In this document: positions 3,192 through 20,779 of the stretch, one piece after another
Numbering within the stretch: the stretch's first letter is position 1
Layout of the letters: each line of letters begins with the position of its first letter
Source: a virus
Reading direction: 5' to 3' (one strand)
Virus record (IMG/VR): IMGVR_UViG_3300031695_000044
Location: 1-20,779 of that record
DNA: 20,779 nt
Made by a program: the position numbers and the translations under genes
The notes under the pieces: model-generated
What the model was told of the DNA's origin: nothing
What the model saw: only the letters and a program-made list of their open reading frames with translations
Databases searched by the model: none

Positions 3192-3919
3192 ATGAAACAT
3201 TAACGACTTCCGAAACTACAGAAACCGCTACAGAAGAGCCGCGTGATTTTGTAGTTGCTGAGGATTTAACGCCTGATAGACCAGAATGGTTGCCCGAAAA
3301 ATACAAAAGCGGTGAAGATTTAGCTAAAGGTTATAAAGAATTAGAGTCTAGGCTTGGCACTAAAGAAGAAGATTTGCGTGTTAAGTTTAAGGAAGAGTAT
3401 GAATCTGATAAGTTTGCTGAAAGGCCAGCATCGTCAGGTGAATACGCACTGCCTGATAGCGTAGATAGCGAAGAAGCTGTCGATAATAGTCTACTAAAGT
3501 GGTGGGCAGAAGAAGCATTTAATAGCGGATACAGTCAAACCCAGTTTGAAAAGGGCATAGATATGTATATGGAGTCAGTTGAAGGTTCTATGCCTGATCT
3601 TGATGCTGAAGCTGCAAAGCTCGGTGAAAGTTCAGAGCAACGCATTGAGGCTGCATCTATGTTTGCAACTAAATTCTTTCCAGAAAATTCTATGCCAGCA
3701 ATTGAGCGCATGTTTGAAACTCACGAAGGTATTTTAGCAGTAGAAGCTATTCAAGAAGCTATGAAAGATGGCAACTTTGCTGGAAGTGCTGAGCCTGTTT
3801 CTGGTTTAAGTGAAGATAATTTAAGGGAGATGATGCAAGACCCTCGCTATTGGAGCAAGAATGATCCTGCATATGTACGGCAAGTAGAGGCTGGCTTTAA
3901 GAAACTCTATGGAGGATAA
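3188..3919 (+). CDS. Capsid assembly scaffolding protein (gp9-like)
   Basis: Internal scaffold that guides assembly of the procapsid and then leaves before DNA fills the head. The protein has 243 residues, is very acidic and largely predicted helical, which suits a scaffold. The signature RPEWLPEKYKSGEDLAKGY near residues 31-50, followed by KELESRLG, is the conserved motif of podophage scaffolds and related proteins. The C-terminus (REMMQDPRYW, then DPAYVRQVEAGFKKLYGG) also fits, with the basic end likely contacting the coat protein. It lies between portal and capsid as in T7, but with an extra gene before the capsid. The start overlaps the upstream stop (ATGA). Confidence 0.9.
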   Translation: MNETLTTSETTETATEEPRDFVVAEDLTPDRPEWLPEKYKSGEDLAKGYKELESRLGTKEEDLRVKFKEEYESDKFAERPASSGEYALPDSVDSEEAVDNSLLKWWAEEAFNSGYSQTQFEKGIDMYMESVEGSMPDLDAEAAKLGESSEQRIEAASMFATKFFPENSMPAIERMFETHEGILAVEAIQEAMKDGNFAGSAEPVSGLSEDNLREMMQDPRYWSKNDPAYVRQVEAGFKKLYGG

Positions 3920-4430
3920 ATTATTAAAACGTGGTAGGTTTTATTTAACTCCATTTAAGTTAGAGCATATTGATGAAGTTGTTAATAATCTAAGCTATGA
4001 AAACGTCAGGGAGATAAAACTCCTTGGCTACAATAGTGTTAGGGAATGTATTGACGACATGGTTAAACATGCTGATTGCTATTTAGTTCGAAAGGAAGGC
4101 CAAGTATTCACAGCTATTGCTGGCCTTTGGTATGAAGATAGTAGAGAGATACCTCAATTTTTTGCAATGTTTTCCCAACGTTTAAAGAAAGATTTTAAAT
4201 CTATAGCTCGCGGATCAAAAATGTTAATTAATTTTTTAGACACGCTTCAAGATGAGATGTCTATGAGGATTTTAACTGACCATGAGTTCATGTTGGACTG
4301 GGCTTCATGGCTAGGATTTGAAGCAGTTGGCATTACTAACTATAATTCTAACAATTATGTTGATTTTGTGCGTTGCATTTCACCACAAAAAAGTGCTTAT
4401 AGTAATTCATCACGGCCCGTGATGCACTGA
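3909..4430 (+). CDS. gp13-like (GNAT-fold) virion assembly protein
   Basis: Protein of 173 residues. Its arrangement (RGRFYLTPFKLEHIDEVVNN near residue 8, REIKLLGYNS, ADCYLVRKEGQVFTAIAGLW near 56, a helix RGSKMLINFLDTL, and a late DWASWLGFEAVGI) matches the T7 gp13 / internal virion protein A family, which has an acetyltransferase-like fold. In T7 gp13 is required for virion assembly. An acetyl-CoA-binding loop of the Q/RxxGxG/A type is not obvious here, so catalytic activity is doubtful. The start at 3909 overlaps the scaffold end by 11 bases and lacks a clear ribosome site, suggesting coupling. Position between scaffold and capsid differs from T7, where gene 13 follows the tail tube genes. 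Its last codons contain a perfect inverted repeat. Confidence 0.72.
   Translation: MEDKLLKRGRFYLTPFKLEHIDEVVNNLSYENVREIKLLGYNSVRECIDDMVKHADCYLVRKEGQVFTAIAGLWYEDSREIPQFFAMFSQRLKKDFKSIARGSKMLINFLDTLQDEMSMRILTDHEFMLDWASWLGFEAVGITNYNSNNYVDFVRCISPQKSAYSNSSRPVMH
4408..4424 (+). other. Hairpin at 3' end of gp13-like gene
   Basis: CATCACGG, one base, CCGTGATG: an eight-base perfect inverted repeat (realistically a 6-7 bp stem with a 3-5 base loop) overlapping the last codons before the TGA at 4428-4430. No T run follows, so it is not a standard terminator. It could be an RNA processing or stability element before the capsid message. Structure is seen; function is inferred. Confidence 0.5.
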
Positions 4431-15598: not shown

Positions 15599-18500
15599 AT
15601 GACTATATTATTATCGACAAACGTTCCAAGAGTTGCTTACACTGTAGGTCAAGGCGTAGTTCAAAAAGTATTTGCTGTTCCTTTTGAGTTTTTTGACGAT
15701 GAAGACGTTACTATTTATGTTGATGGTATTAAAAAGACGCTAGGTTCAAACTACACACTCTCAGGTGGCAATGGTGCGGTTGGTACTCTTACATTTAATA
15801 CAACTGGTGGAACACAATTAATTACTGGAGCTACTGGTGGCAGTACAGTTATTATTGTGCGCGATGTAAAGCTTTCAAGAGTTACCGACTTTGCTACAAG
15901 TGGAGATATTAATAGAACGGCTTTAAATTTGCAGCTTGATACTCTTGTTGCACAAATTTCCGATATGGATGATCGTCTTTCTCGCACAATTCAACTTAAT
16001 GATTTTGAAGTTGCTCCAAGCATGTTGCTTACTGCAGATCGCAAAGATAAAATCTTAGCTTTTAACGCATCAACTGGCAACGTAGAAGCTGGCCCCTCAA
16101 TATCAGCGGTGAATACAGCGGTTACAGCACTCTCTACTACAACTACAAAAGCTAATGAAGCTGCTGCTTCTGCTACTTCGGCTGCTTCTTCTGCAACTAC
16201 AGCGACTGCTAAGGCCACAATAGCAACTGACAAGTCGGCACTAGCAGCTACTGCAAAAACTAACGCTGAGACAGCAGAAACAAATGCTGAAACTGCTGAA
16301 ACTAATGCAGCATCTAGTGCATCTACAGCTCTTACAAGGGCAAACGCGGCAACTGCAAGCGCATCTACAGCTACTACTAAAGCATCAGAAGCTTCTTCAT
16401 CAGCCTCGTCTTCTTTGAGTAATAAAAATGCTACGGACACTGCAAAGGCAAACGCTGTTACCGCCCAAAATGCTTCTGTCGCTGCTAGGGATGCTTCCGT
16501 TACCGCCAAGGATGCTTCTGTTGCCGCGAAGGATGCTTCAGTAGTTGCCAAGAACGCTTCAGTAGCTGCCAAGGATTCTTCAGTTACTGCTCAAAATGCT
16601 TCTGTCGCCGCCAAGAACTCTTCTGAAACTGCAGCAAGCAATTCGTCTTCTAGTGCATCTACAGCTACTACAAGAGCAAATACAGCTACAGCAAAGGCAG
16701 ACATTGCAACTGCTAAAGCCATCATAGCTACAGACAAAGCAGCGATAGCTACAACAAAAGCTAGTGAAGCTGCGAGTAGTGCATCTTCTATGTCAAGTTC
16801 TGTAACAGCGGCAACAGCGGCTAAAGATGCGGCACTCGCGGCATTAGATTCATTCGACGACAGATACTTAGGAACGAAGTCATCAAACCCATCAGTGGAC
16901 AATGACGGAAACTCATTAGTTGCTGGTGCATTATATTTTAATACTTCTGACAACACGATGAAAGTGTACGAAGGTTCTAATTGGGTCGCGGCTTACGCCT
17001 CAATAAGTGGTGCTTTGCTAAAAACTGGCGGAGTAATGACAGGTGCTATCACAACTAATAGTACGTTTGATGGGCGAGATGTAGCTGCTGATGGAGTATT
17101 GGCTACTAATGCTTTACCAAAATCTGGTGGTACTATGACAGGCAATATTGCACACGGCAGCGATTTTACGCTAGACGTAGCAGGGAATATTACCCTTGAT
17201 GCAGGCGGTGGGGATATTTTTCTTAAACAAAATGGTACACATTATGGTAGTATAAAAAGAAATAATGGTGACTTACAAATTCACAGTGAAGCAAGTGACG
17301 AAGATATTTTATTTGTAGGCAAAGATGGTAGCTCAGCTATAACAGCCCTCACCCTTGATATGTCTAATAAGGGTTCGGCTATTTTCAATACTGACGCATC
17401 AATAACAGCCCAAGGCACACACAATGAAGGCGGTGGCCAATTATTCTTAAAGGGTACAGACACCCCTGCGGCAAGTAAAAACTTAGGTCAAGTAAATTTC
17501 GGCAATTCCGATGACCAATCTTTAGCGATGATACGTGGTGAATCAACAGCGGCGACAGGGGCAGATTTAGTTTTCCAAACTGAAGAGGCTGGTGCAGCTA
17601 TTGAAGAACGTATGCGCATCAATGATTCAGGTGAGGTAGGTATTGGAACAAATGACGCTAAACGAAAATTACACGTTTCAAGTGGTGGAGCAATATCTTC
17701 AGGAAATGATTATGATGTTGCAATTTTTCAAAATAGTGATGCGGCAGGAATACGATTAGTTGATGCAGGAAATGGAGGAAGTAATGGGGGTAACGCAGGA
17801 CTAGGCAACGACAACGGAAACCTTAACGTTGCTTCTGCAGGAGTAATGTCCTTCTCAACAAGCTTAGCGGCAAATGCCCCTCTTTATGGTGGATCGGGCA
17901 GCACGGGCGGTACAGAACGTATGCGCATCGACACGTCAGGCAACGTGTTGGTGGGTAAGACTGCTACTGCCCAACAGACTGCAGGGACAGTTTTATACAA
18001 TTCTGGTCAAATATATGCTACTGCTACTAGCACTCACCCTCTGGTAATAACTCGTAAACAAAATGATGGCGCACATGCTATTTTTTACTCAGATACAAGT
18101 GAAATAGGTAAGATTGGTAATTCTGGTAGCGCATTATCTATATCTTCAGGAGCAAATATTACTCTTGATGCTGATGGTGGTTTTATTAATTTTGCAGACG
18201 CTGGTAATGTTGTTGGTGTGTTCGAAAACAATGGCGGACATTTTCATATAAAGGCAGGATTACAAGATAAAGACATAGTCTTTAGAGGCAACGATGGCGG
18301 TTCAGCTATAACAGCTCTCACCCTTGATATGTCTGATGCTGGGTCGGCTCATTTCAACACCAGCATTTATCTTGGCGATGGAAAAGCAATAAAACTAGGC
18401 GCTTCTGCTGACCTACAGATTTACCATGATGGGCAAAATAGTTACATACAAGAACAAGGTACTGGTCAATTACGACTTGATACAAATGGGACGGATGTTC

Positions 18501-18946
18501 GCATTACAAAAAGCGATTCTGAGTTTATGGCAAAATTCATTGTAGATGGTGCAGCAGAGCTATATCACAATAATGCAAAGAAGGTTGAAACAACTAGTGC
18601 AGGCGTAACAGTCACAGGTACAGTAACCGCAACTGCATTTGCAGGTAGTGGCGCTAACCTAACAGGTGTTGGCGGCAGTACAACTCGTGGCGATGTGGGT
18701 ACTTATACTATTGGTTGTACTACTAGCTTTCAAGCTAATGTAACAATAGCTAGAGGGGCTACTATTGCAGGCAACACTATTGCTCAAGGTAACACACATG
18801 GATTTAGATTGATACCAAACCGAGAGTATCACAACCAACAGATTACAACACAAGGTTTATCAGGCACTTGGAGAAACATGGGTGGTAATGTTAGACACAA
18901 CAACGTCAATGACAAGCCTGGGACACTGTGGTGCAGAATATCTTGA
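15599..18946 (+). CDS. Tail fibre protein with T7-type N-terminal anchor
   Basis: Trimeric fibre that recognises the host surface. AGAGGTG precedes the ATG. Residues 1 to about 140 (STNVPRVAYTVGQGVVQKVF, FFDDEDVTIYVDG, RDVKLSRVTDF, GDINRTALNLQLDTLVAQIS) form the T7 gp17-type anchor that binds the tail. Residues about 175-415 are an Ala/Ser/Thr-rich shaft that includes eight seven-residue repeats. A short GALYFNTSDNTMKVYEG-SNW domain follows near 440. Then come beta-rich segments with ERMRIN/ID-SGNV-VGKT motifs and two copies of a 69-residue module. The last part has LQIYHDGQNSYIQEQGTGQL and ends LSGTWRNMGG...LWCRIS, a tip domain common in phage fibres. At 1115 residues it is twice T7 gp17. 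No S74 peptidase chaperone domain is seen, consistent with the separate chaperone-like gene next door. Confidence 0.93.
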   Translation: MTILLSTNVPRVAYTVGQGVVQKVFAVPFEFFDDEDVTIYVDGIKKTLGSNYTLSGGNGAVGTLTFNTTGGTQLITGATGGSTVIIVRDVKLSRVTDFATSGDINRTALNLQLDTLVAQISDMDDRLSRTIQLNDFEVAPSMLLTADRKDKILAFNASTGNVEAGPSISAVNTAVTALSTTTTKANEAAASATSAASSATTATAKATIATDKSALAATAKTNAETAETNAETAETNAASSASTALTRANAATASASTATTKASEASSSASSSLSNKNATDTAKANAVTAQNASVAARDASVTAKDASVAAKDASVVAKNASVAAKDSSVTAQNASVAAKNSSETAASNSSSSASTATTRANTATAKADIATAKAIIATDKAAIATTKASEAASSASSMSSSVTAATAAKDAALAALDSFDDRYLGTKSSNPSVDNDGNSLVAGALYFNTSDNTMKVYEGSNWVAAYASISGALLKTGGVMTGAITTNSTFDGRDVAADGVLATNALPKSGGTMTGNIAHGSDFTLDVAGNITLDAGGGDIFLKQNGTHYGSIKRNNGDLQIHSEASDEDILFVGKDGSSAITALTLDMSNKGSAIFNTDASITAQGTHNEGGGQLFLKGTDTPAASKNLGQVNFGNSDDQSLAMIRGESTAATGADLVFQTEEAGAAIEERMRINDSGEVGIGTNDAKRKLHVSSGGAISSGNDYDVAIFQNSDAAGIRLVDAGNGGSNGGNAGLGNDNGNLNVASAGVMSFSTSLAANAPLYGGSGSTGGTERMRIDTSGNVLVGKTATAQQTAGTVLYNSGQIYATATSTHPLVITRKQNDGAHAIFYSDTSEIGKIGNSGSALSISSGANITLDADGGFINFADAGNVVGVFENNGGHFHIKAGLQDKDIVFRGNDGGSAITALTLDMSDAGSAHFNTSIYLGDGKAIKLGASADLQIYHDGQNSYIQEQGTGQLRLDTNGTDVRITKSDSEFMAKFIVDGAAELYHNNAKKVETTSAGVTVTGTVTATAFAGSGANLTGVGGSTTRGDVGTYTIGCTTSFQANVTIARGATIAGNTIAQGNTHGFRLIPNREYHNQQITTQGLSGTWRNMGGNVRHNNVNDKPGTLWCRIS
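16457..16624 (+). repeat. Eight 21-bp tandem units in fibre shaft
   Basis: Codons 287-342 of the fibre consist of eight imperfect units of pattern V-(A/T/V)-A-(K/R/Q)-(D/N)-(A/S)-S, for example VTAKDAS and VAAKDAS. The DNA units (GTT GCC GCG AAG GAT GCT TCT and variants) differ mainly at third positions. The seven-residue period suits a coiled-coil shaft. The repeat is surrounded by less regular Ala/Ser/Thr sequence. Confidence 0.9.
17186..17392 (+). repeat. Fibre 69-residue module, copy 1
   Basis: Fibre residues 530-598, starting NITLDAGGGDIFL and ending SAITALTLDMSNKGSAIFNT. It aligns without any gap to a second 69-residue stretch 969 bases downstream. The final 56 bases of the two copies (17333-17388 here) are close to identical, while the first part has diverged. 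Confidence 0.85.
18155..18361 (+). repeat. Fibre 69-residue module, copy 2
   Basis: Fibre residues 853-921, starting NITLDADGGFINF and ending SAITALTLDMSDAGSAHFNT. Same length as copy 1 with no gaps; the near-identical DNA part is 18302-18357. It is followed directly by the YLGDGKAIKLGASADLQIYHDG segment. Confidence 0.85.
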
Positions 18947-18974: not shown

Positions 18975-19391
18975 ATGCCACAAGTAACAATAACAGAAGT
19001 GCGTAACGCACAATCTCTAAGTGCAGCAAATAATTCATTTCAATTAGAAATTAATCACCCAGAGTTTGGTTGGATACCATATGGTTTAATGCCTGATGAC
19101 ACAGATATGACTGTAGACAACAGTGTATTGCTCGAACTTATTGGTTCAGATTATGATGCTTATGTTGCACCTACTCAAGCAGAGTTAGATGCAGAACTAT
19201 CGGCAGATATAAGGGGTGAACGTAATCAAAGGTTAGTCGAAGAGGTAGACGCAATAGCTGGTAATGCACTACGTTGGGCGGCACTTACAGATGCTCAACG
19301 AACTGCTTGGGGTAACTATAGAACTGCATTGCTAGATTTACCAACACAATCTGGGTTTCCCAATACAATAACGTGGCCTACTAAACCATAA
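18975..19391 (+). CDS. Tail fibre assembly / phage tail assembly chaperone-like protein
   Basis: 138-residue protein just downstream of the fibre, with a near-perfect ribosome site AAGGAGG at 18963-18969, five bases before the ATG. The N-terminal half (ITEVRNAQSLSAANNSFQLE, HPEFGWIPYGL) looks like a small beta domain. Residues 78-138 carry the pattern IRGERNQRLVEEVDA...WAALTDAQRTAWGNYRTALLDLP...GFP...TWPTKP, which matches the C-terminal domain of phage tail assembly chaperones (R-x-x-R, AW-x-x-YR-x-A-L-x-D-L-P, GFP-x-x-x-x-WP). It probably assists folding or trimerisation of the long fibre, or joins it to the tail. Family recognition is good; the fibre as partner is inferred from adjacency. 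Confidence 0.8.
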   Translation: MPQVTITEVRNAQSLSAANNSFQLEINHPEFGWIPYGLMPDDTDMTVDNSVLLELIGSDYDAYVAPTQAELDAELSADIRGERNQRLVEEVDAIAGNALRWAALTDAQRTAWGNYRTALLDLPTQSGFPNTITWPTKP

Positions 19392-19405: not shown

Positions 19406-19708
19406 ATGCCAACAACACACATATGGTCTATCTCTGACTTAGAGCGAAACACATCTGACAACTCAGTAACAACAGCTCACTGGCGTTGCGAAAGCACAGA
19501 TGGAACAAACACTGCATCAGCCTATGGTGCAACGTTACATACAGGTGTGCCATCAGATGCAGATTATATTGCTTACGCTGATCTAACAGAAGCAAACGTA
19601 TTATCTTGGGTACACGAACAAGTAACTAAAGCTGATACTGAAGCGGCAAACGATACTAAGATAGCTGAACTTGCGAGCCCAATATCTTTAAATGGAAAAC
19701 CTTGGTAA
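19406..19708 (+). CDS. Small fibre-adjacent protein (DUF7936-like)
   Basis: 100-residue protein, ribosome site AAGGA before the ATG. It reads HIWSISDLERNTSDNSVTTA, HWRCESTDGTNTASAYGATL, then YADLTEANVLSWVHEQV and a C-terminal ISLNGKPW. The order (W-x-I-x-x-LER, V-x-x-A-HWR, S-x-YG, AY-x-x-LTE-x-x-V-x-x-WV, G-x-PW) is that of a short uncharacterised family found beside tail fibre genes in marine phages and cyanophages; I believe it is DUF7936 but could not check. No signal peptide or membrane segment. It might be a fibre accessory or virion tip protein; function is unknown. Confidence 0.7.
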   Translation: MPTTHIWSISDLERNTSDNSVTTAHWRCESTDGTNTASAYGATLHTGVPSDADYIAYADLTEANVLSWVHEQVTKADTEAANDTKIAELASPISLNGKPW

Positions 19709-19712
19709 ATAA

Positions 19713-20261
19713 ATGACACGTTTATTTTTAATAGCATTATTTTTATTGAGTGGTAGTTTTGCGTTTGCCGATGAGACAATCAAGACTGAGACTAAAGTAA
19801 TATCTGATGGTAAAATGGATACAACTATTAATAGTCCACCACCATCAGCCATATCACCTCAGATTAGCGCAAGTAATTCTGACCTGTGTACTGTCGGTGT
19901 GGCTGGTGCAGTCCAAACGCAGATACTTGGTATCTCTGCTGGTCGTACTGTACGTGATATGAATTGTGAGAAACTAAAGAACGCTAAGACTATGTACGAT
20001 ATGGGGATGAAAGTGGCAGCCGTGTCCGTAATGTGCCAAGACGAAAGAGTGTTTGATGCTATGATGGACGCTGGTACTCCTTGCCCTAAAGATGGTTTGA
20101 TTGGTGACAAAGCTAAGCTTGCTTGGCAGATGGCAGCTAAGAATGAAACTTTAGAACGTGAGAAAAACAATGTTGGATTAAGGCTTTTCTATGGTGATGA
20201 TGGTACAAAGACTGGCATTAGTGCTGTGCTTGCAGCTCTGGCCTTCCTACTCCTACTCTGA
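19713..20261 (+). CDS. Exported protein with C-terminal hydrophobic tail, unknown function
   Basis: 182 residues. Residues 1-19 (MTRLFLIALFLLSGSFAFA, then DE) form a classic Sec signal peptide with an AFA cleavage site. The mature part carries SPPPSAISPQISASNSDLCT, VGVAGAVQTQILGIS, DMNCEKLKNAKTMYDMGMKV and VMCQDERVFDAMMDAGTPCP, with four cysteines at 59, 85, 108 and 124 that could form two disulfides in the periplasm. Residues about 168-182 are a hydrophobic tail with no charge after it. I have seen this SNSDLCTVG/RDMNCE/AAVSV-CQD pattern as a recurring hypothetical protein near marine phage fibre genes. Possible roles are host-envelope modification, lysis or superinfection exclusion; none is shown. 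The start lacks a strong ribosome site and follows the previous stop by four bases. Confidence 0.8.
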   Translation: MTRLFLIALFLLSGSFAFADETIKTETKVISDGKMDTTINSPPPSAISPQISASNSDLCTVGVAGAVQTQILGISAGRTVRDMNCEKLKNAKTMYDMGMKVAAVSVMCQDERVFDAMMDAGTPCPKDGLIGDKAKLAWQMAAKNETLEREKNNVGLRLFYGDDGTKTGISAVLAALAFLLLL

Positions 20262-20779
20262 ACCATACTCGTATGGTACGACTGGGAACGCAGCATCTGG
20301 CTCATTAAGTTGGGGGATGAGTTCTGTCTTTCCTTCTATTACAGGCTTAGATGTAAACGGATTACTGTATAGATATACTACAATTAAAAATCGAAAAGAT
20401 AACATGAAGGTTCACGTTGGAAACAAGAACCCAAATGGAGTTGGTTATTTATTTCGAGAGACTGATGACTGGTCTGGAGTAGATGGCAATACTATTGTAA
20501 AATATTTTCCTCTTGCAAACATTCCATCCTCTAAGTGGGGTGATGGTTCAATTGAGGTTGAGGGTACAGGTTCAGTTACTAATGCAACAGTGATATATAA
20601 CTATAGAATAAACGAGTGTTATAATCCGCAAGCTAATGAACTATGCGCTGGTTATGTTAAGCCTGTGCCTGTCGTTCCTGTTGTTGAGATATACAATGCT
20701 ACAGAAGATGAAGATGTAGCTGCTGCAATAGATACAGAAATAGAATTTGAATATGATAGCGATGGGAATATTATACTTG
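20191..20779 (+). CDS. Exported beta-rich protein, unknown function (3' end off window)
   Basis: Open frame of at least 196 codons, reaching the window edge without a stop. I chose the ATG at 20191, with AAGG seven bases before it; ATGs at 20197 and 20200 are alternatives. It starts inside the previous gene, overlapping it by 71 bases in the +1 frame. Residues 1-23 look like a signal peptide (R7, hydrophobic LALVLCLQLW, cleavage after SYS before EPY). The mature part reads WGMSSVFPSITGLDVNGLLY, VGNKNPNGVGYLFRETDDWS, SSKWGDGSIEVEGTGSV, VIYNYRINECYNPQANELC, then a Pro/Val stretch and an acidic region. It looks like a secreted beta-sandwich with a C143/C152 pair. I recall similar hypothetical proteins paired with the preceding one in marine phages. 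Function unknown. Confidence 0.8.
   Translation, partial: MVMMVQRLALVLCLQLWPSYSYSEPYSYGTTGNAASGSLSWGMSSVFPSITGLDVNGLLYRYTTIKNRKDNMKVHVGNKNPNGVGYLFRETDDWSGVDGNTIVKYFPLANIPSSKWGDGSIEVEGTGSVTNATVIYNYRINECYNPQANELCAGYVKPVPVVPVVEIYNATEDEDVAAAIDTEIEFEYDSDGNIIL

Follow-up and report, generated by a model that had tools for sequence, protein, structure and literature searches.

Exported proteins P1 and P2 open a conserved module in marine phages that may act on the host envelope at lysis

Genes at the locus

The window, meaning the whole stretch of DNA analyzed (20,779 nucleotides), is the entire IMG/VR virus record IMGVR_UViG_3300031695_000044, a podovirus-like fragment with genes for terminase, portal, capsid, internal proteins, and an 1115-aa tail fiber. 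Its last genes are as follows.

15599 to 18946, + strand: tail fiber gene, 1115 aa (flank; tail fiber PHROG matches, e.g., phrog_38058, E 1.4e-22)
18975 to 19391, + strand: tail fiber assembly chaperone (flank; PF16778, E 2.1e-13; phrog_4628)
19406 to 19708, + strand: DUF7936 gene (flank, outside the module; PF25590, E 3.6e-25)
19713 to 20261, + strand: P1, exported, 182 aa (open reading frame [ORF]; phrog_20531, E 2e-13; alignments; AlphaFold2 model)
20191 to 20261, + strand: P1/P2 overlap, 71 nt (read in two frames: C-terminal helix of P1, signal peptide of P2)
20191 to 20779, + strand: P2, 3' end beyond the contig (ATG start at 20191; ORF open at the 3' end; sibling copies; model)

The gap between the DUF7936 gene and P1 is 4 nt, and the gene upstream of P1 differs between loci, with DUF7936 swapped for other genes in relatives. 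Elsewhere in the window (3909 to 4430), a 173-aa ORF between a scaffold-like ORF and the capsid-side genes had a weak match to phrog_308 (E 6.9e-6), an internal virion protein family.

A first-pass annotation had described two consecutive genes here. Both ORFs are present, but they overlap by 71 nt and P2 is incomplete at the contig end. Sibling contigs (L014 and L093 to L096) were 99 to 100% identical over P2, and the complete protein has 290 aa (L094, 5001 to 5873).

P1 and P2

P1 consists of a signal peptide (MTRLFLIALFLLSGSFAFA, ending in FAFA), a Pro/Ser/Thr linker, a disulfide-type domain (C59, C85, C108, and C124) built of a beta-hairpin plus helices, and a C-terminal hydrophobic helix. 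P2 consists of a signal peptide, a beta-sandwich of about 115 aa, an acidic linker, and a helical C-terminal domain, the last being complete only in the siblings. A crude signal-peptide rule was passed by 212/258 P1 and 67/88 P2 sequences, against 76/1408 other ORFs of at least 80 aa at the same loci; the export signals are more than chance, which bears out the earlier claim that both proteins are Sec exported. The conserved cysteines of that claim also held up: all four in P1 were invariant in 58/58 diverse relatives, and P2 cysteines 143 and 152 were invariant among 20 window-type copies. Both genes are under purifying selection (dN/dS of about 0.11 for each).

The C-terminal hydrophobic segment of P1 was found in 82/82 window-type copies and is missing from P1 of the pelagi and roseo types. 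An AlphaFold2 model of P1 (58 sequences; mean pLDDT 67.8; most of residues 81 to 150 above pLDDT 80) had the beta-hairpin between C59 and C85 and a helical core, and its C-terminal helix in the window lineage is likely membrane seated. A pore-forming beta-hairpin (strands 60 to 68 and 73 to 81) was considered and dropped, as hydrophobicity alternation was not clean over the 58 rows. Foldseek searches of P1 against the PDB gave no E value below 0.35, PDB sequence profiles gave no solved structure matching it, and VIA-align reached a Z of up to 3.8 only, on the C-terminal helices; in BFVD, phage proteins alone matched P1 convincingly. With no convincing PDB structural match, we claim no fold for P1, known or new.

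The P2 model (20 sequences; mean pLDDT 60) predicted the beta-sandwich well (strands within residues 26 to 140; pLDDT of about 76 to 90 over residues 41 to 140) and the acidic and helical C-terminal half poorly. The sandwich matched the Sf6 tail needle knob (Foldseek E 1.6e-4), with BcsB, the furin P domain, carbohydrate-binding modules (CBMs), and viral capsids equal, and VIA-align gave many tied matches (Z of about 7 to 8.4; root mean square deviation mostly 2.6 to 4 Å over 91 to 122 residues). Because the sandwich resembles many unrelated proteins, these matches show a common fold and not a function. Structure prediction of each protein, part of the check proposed in the first-pass annotation, yielded a beta-sandwich head for P2 and no PDB fold match for P1.

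Sequence searches agreed with the earlier statement that the pair has no known function, in that no curated family names one for P1 or P2. P1 matched phrog_20531, a family of unknown function (E 2e-13 for the window, 1.9e-11 for HTVC033P, 1.3e-8 for CRP-207, and 1.4e-5 for phiAxp-2). Pfam was searched to E 1 with P1 and to E 5 with P2 and had no match for either, and NCBIfam, PADLOC, and PDB sequence profiles gave nothing for P1, P2, or the downstream proteins X1 and X2. Homology to a known lysis or tail protein had been named as refuting an undescribed system; P1 and P2 matched no known lysis, tail, or fiber family in Pfam, PHROGs, or NCBIfam.

P2 reads as the variable slot of the module. Homology of P2 between the three lineages (window, pelagi, and roseo type) was undetectable, whether the protein was compared whole or split. 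The P2 match between HTVC023P and HTVC033P was confined to residues 446 to 533, in the C-terminal part; between some phages the N-terminal head appears to have been swapped and the C-terminal part kept. Three contigs (L035, L075, and L080) have P2 split into three reading frames with intact neighbors, which suggests frameshift errors or decaying genes.

Gene coupling and the cassette

The tight coupling noted earlier was confirmed, since P1 and P2 overlap and travel together across relatives. The overlap was exactly 71 nt in 63/81 window-type relatives, and all 81 had 47 nt or more, even when the latest start compatible with the signal core was assumed; most roseo-type loci also keep an overlap, of varying length. 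From P2 to the endolysin, window-type genes are mostly spaced by −1 to −4 nt or overlap, with one gap of 7 to 11 nt after P3, and the coding strand had no terminator-like site from P1 to the endolysin in the window lineage. This unbroken run of touching or overlapping ORFs, with no terminator-like site, suggests that the genes from P1 to the endolysin are probably expressed together, and late.

The sibling contigs give the window-type order as P1-P2-X1-X2-X3-P3-EF-holin-endolysin, with the first five proteins exported. The full order was kept in 37/46 loci; X1 was not called in six, and the P2 frame was broken in three. Downstream of P2 in L094, X1 (166 aa), X2 (about 128 aa), and X3 (132 aa) each have a signal peptide, and the rule was passed by 54/63 X1, 34/64 X2, and 61/65 X3 sequences, the low X2 rate arising because the start was probably miscalled in the longest ORF. 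The rule is blind to the difference between a signal peptide and an N-terminal membrane anchor, so P3 passes were counted as anchors. The EF protein (L094, 7651 to 7962; PF13202, E 2e-7) combines an EF-hand-like loop with two hydrophobic segments and is possibly a calcium-linked lysis regulator; a relative also occurs in roseophage CRP-207. In the siblings, the holin-like protein matched phrog_2524 and the endolysin GH108 (E 3.3e-29); relatives have GTA_holin_3TM (E 2.9e-24) and M15 peptidase (E 2.1e-14) matches.

X1, X2, and X3 (L094, 5870 to 7141) recur as a trio directly after tail fiber genes in Vibrio phages, for example around 4200 to 5340 in L098, L099, and L100, three records from which P1 is absent; X3 matched 180 Vibrio phage records. 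By eye, X1 looks pilin-like and X2 resembles a PapD-type chaperone domain, both without database confirmation.

P3 of a window-type sibling is 166 aa long and, as read from sequence alone, has one N-terminal transmembrane segment followed by a long coiled coil, ending in NPLSD; the NPL of this tail is conserved. By hhalign, P3 of the window type is related to that of the roseo type (95%), and pelagi-type P3 is less clearly related (47%). P3 matched no spanin family significantly (phrog_739, E 0.29 and 0.088). HTVC115P (L005, 6541 to 6969) encodes a window-type P3 (26% identity, E 2e-7) as well as the c30-c31 pair, a second coiled-coil/Cys-rich pair that pelagi-type loci often carry, so both coiled-coil types can coexist. 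Existing annotations of the roseophage genes differ from ours: P3 of CRP-207 (L009, 3292 to 3873) and CRP-810 (L007, 5162 to 5584) is labeled (putative) lysozyme, PHROGs giving no lysozyme match for that of CRP-207, and CRP-810 P1 is labeled an OmpA family protein.

Co-occurrence across phages was another check proposed at the outset. All 41 pelagi-type loci with enough downstream sequence had P1, P2, and P3 together, and among 50,697 GenBank phage records, pelagi-type P2 (5/5) and P3 (4/4) occurred only in P1 carriers. In the roseo type, where the terminase genes come after the module, the same exported P2 lies right after P1 in 74/74 loci and the membrane coiled-coil P3 comes next in 73/73. 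P1 and P2 had been described as a pair closing a virion module. They do not stand alone: each lineage examined has P3 as a further member of the set, and in the window lineage X1 to X3 are encoded in between. Instead of closing a module, the two genes open a longer cassette that, in the window lineage, runs into the holin and endolysin.

Distribution of the P1 family

P1 is very common: three IMG/VR scans confirmed it in at least 598/599, at least 600/600, and at least 579/600 candidate stretches, that is, in over 570 stretches per query among the matches listed. Annotated carriers include Pelagibacter phages HTVC202P, HTVC033P, HTVC115P, HTVC023P, Baldr, and Mosig and Roseobacter phages CRP-207 and CRP-810; P1 also occurs in a Votkovvirus fosmid and two environmental genomes, and a distant relative occurs in Achromobacter phages. 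In the GenBank records of Pelagibacter phages Baldr (L011; OQ414636) and Hodr (L276; OQ414635), the locus tags of each bear the name of the other, and the labels may be swapped.

A species-level collection of bacterial and archaeal genomes held only 13 P1 loci, all on metagenome-assembled genome (MAG) or single-cell contigs. These are compatible with phage contigs binned with their hosts; a host origin was set aside, and because the loci are so few and of this kind, we take P1 as a phage family. In the literature, we found neither a virion proteome nor a functional assay for any P1 carrier (the phiAxp-2 paper has no virion proteomics) and no paper describing the P1-P2-P3 module, the novelty of which is probable, given a search that fell short of many subscription papers.

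Possible roles

We tentatively favor the possibility that P1, P2, and P3 form a spanin-like complex of the envelope that acts late, at lysis. P3 would be anchored in the inner membrane, its coiled coil reaching into the periplasm. P1 and P2 would be Sec-exported periplasmic parts that connect P3 to the peptidoglycan or the outer membrane; P1 would contribute a periplasmic domain stabilized by disulfides between its cysteines, to which the window lineage adds a C-terminal membrane helix of its own. The resulting three-component complex would be made late in infection and, after the holin and endolysin have acted, would disrupt the outer membrane, the job of spanins elsewhere.

The gene neighborhood of the window lineage is consistent with this, as are the joint occurrence of P1, P2, and P3, the kinship of window- and roseo-type P3, and the i-spanin topology of P3. 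In window-type loci with at least eight genes downstream of P1 (n = 46), a holin family follows in 46/46 and an endolysin in 45/46; the module thus lies beside the genes that burst the host and may help the phage to exit through the outer membrane. A P3 coiled coil, a P1 disulfide-type domain, and an exported P2 make up the layout expected of an envelope bridge. Rz (PF03245) scored over the cutoff in 0/19 P1-carrying records. Hodr, the nearest cultured relative (portal 65% identical), lacks P1 and has after its fibers another membrane coiled-coil gene together with holin-like and hydrolase-like genes (assigned by reading the sequences). Because of this layout, the undetected Rz, and the Hodr arrangement, we put a spanin-like outer membrane step first.

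Several observations argue against that step. Recognized lysis genes lay near P1 in 21/40 pelagi-type loci (an M15 endolysin or holin-like gene is nearby in about half) and in 9/64 roseo-type loci. The scarcity of lysis genes near the roseo-type module is the main weakness of the spanin-like reading, leaving room for exclusion or masking, a virion role, or a surface fiber. P3 has no significant spanin-family match, spanins are small and the P1-P2-P3 set is large, and P2 has diverged between lineages beyond detectable homology. A lipobox rule was passed by P2 in 0/88, P1 in 2/258, X1 in 0/63, X2 in 0/64, and X3 in 4/65 sequences, none of them window copies; with no convincing lipobox in any member, the window lineage has no classical outer membrane anchor.

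Lipoproteins do occur near some pelagi- and roseo-type modules (clusters c48 and c40). The c40 protein, whose gene immediately precedes P1 in some roseo-type loci (L007, 3558 to 3818, and relatives), has the same helix-Cys motif as P1 (hhalign, 94%) and a lipobox in 14/20 copies, which speaks for the spanin-like reading.

An action on the host envelope had been suggested earlier, in the form of lysis, superinfection exclusion, or receptor masking. The neighborhood fits an envelope role; within it, lysis is the possibility we tentatively prefer, and exclusion or masking we regard as unlikely. In the latter case, P1 and P2 would be exported during infection, attach to the surface of the host or to its periplasmic face, and keep other phages from adsorbing or delivering their DNA. 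Their export signals, the variation of P2 heads over a kept C-terminal part, the resemblance of the head to carbohydrate-binding and receptor-binding folds (among others), and the position of the roseo-type module apart from recognized lysis genes would all suit this role. The window-lineage run with holin and endolysin, however, suggests expression too late for exclusion to be useful, and PADLOC models gave no convincing match. To our knowledge, an obligate membrane coiled-coil partner is not usual for exclusion proteins.

We consider it quite improbable that P1 and P2 are virion components, passing through the periplasm or associated with the virion and acting at entry, e.g., as a tail-tip or adsorption part. 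They lie directly after the fiber genes and fiber chaperone, and the P2 sandwich is like phage tail needle knobs and fiber domains; yet these fold matches are tied over many unrelated proteins, Pfam and PHROGs gave no fiber or tail family match, cleavable signal peptides would remove the proteins from cytoplasmic virion assembly, and relatives have different fiber genes upstream but keep P1-P2 together with the genes that follow.

Least credible is a pilus- or curli-like extracellular fiber made by P1, P2, X1, X2, and X3 on the infected cell, similar to a proposal for curli genes carried by phages, which the five consecutive exported proteins of the window lineage, the trio behind tail fiber genes in Vibrio phages lacking P1, the pilin-like and PapD-like looks of X1 and X2, and the curli genes already known in pelagiphages (PMC7029224, PMC9599517) would fit, but against which stand the lack of any pilin, chaperone, CsgG, or CsgF match (Pfam, NCBIfam, and PDB sequences) or recognized usher or outer membrane pore gene in the cassette and the occurrence of P1-P2-P3 without X1 to X3 in pelagi- and roseo-type phages.

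A bolder form of the spanin-like reading, which we think rather unlikely, is that P1-P2-P3 would be a novel phage device, present across the oceans, that breaches or remodels the outer membrane of Gram-negative hosts and has no kinship with Rz/Rz1 or u-spanins. Its P2 head would be interchangeable so as to suit the envelope of the host, and in the window lineage the device would be extended by the X1-X2-X3 trio that Vibrio phages carry alone. How phages open the outer membrane of SAR11 and marine Rhodobacteraceae, the most abundant marine bacteria, is largely unknown, and P1-P2-P3 offers a concrete, clonable candidate: a conserved three-part exported module with coupled genes and a constant membrane partner on very many marine phage contigs. 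Were exclusion or masking true instead, the module would be an unusually widespread marine example.

Comparison with known systems

P1 of the window, the pelagiphages, the roseophages, and Achromobacter phage phiAxp-2 are all members of phrog_20531 and do not differ in this respect; the family has no assigned role.

Like the two-component Rz/Rz1 spanins of phage lambda, the module has overlapping genes for envelope proteins, a place beside holin and endolysin in the window lineage, and, in P3, the i-spanin topology of an N-terminal transmembrane segment and a predicted periplasmic coiled coil. Unlike them, it has several larger exported proteins in place of one small lipoprotein, its overlap joins P1 and P2 and not P3 and a lipoprotein, the window lineage has no lipobox partner, and P3 has no Rz family sequence match. 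Window-lineage P1 resembles the u-spanin of phage T1 (gp11) in combining a terminal export signal with a membrane helix at the opposite end, but its signal is of the signal-peptidase I type without a lipobox Cys, and pelagi- and roseo-type P1 lack the C-terminal helix. Because both the lipoprotein feature and a sequence match were looked for and neither was found, we do not class the module as a member of the Rz/Rz1 or u-spanin systems.

Curli genes (CsgG/CsgF) are carried by pelagiphages (PMC7029224, PMC9599517), and methylophage Melnitz likewise encodes curli genes (PMC9004378). P1 and P2 differ from these in having no CsgG or CsgF homology, and the gene set and order also differ; in both cases marine phages that infect streamlined hosts encode exported proteins in a cluster, and for the curli genes, too, lysis control is one published proposal.
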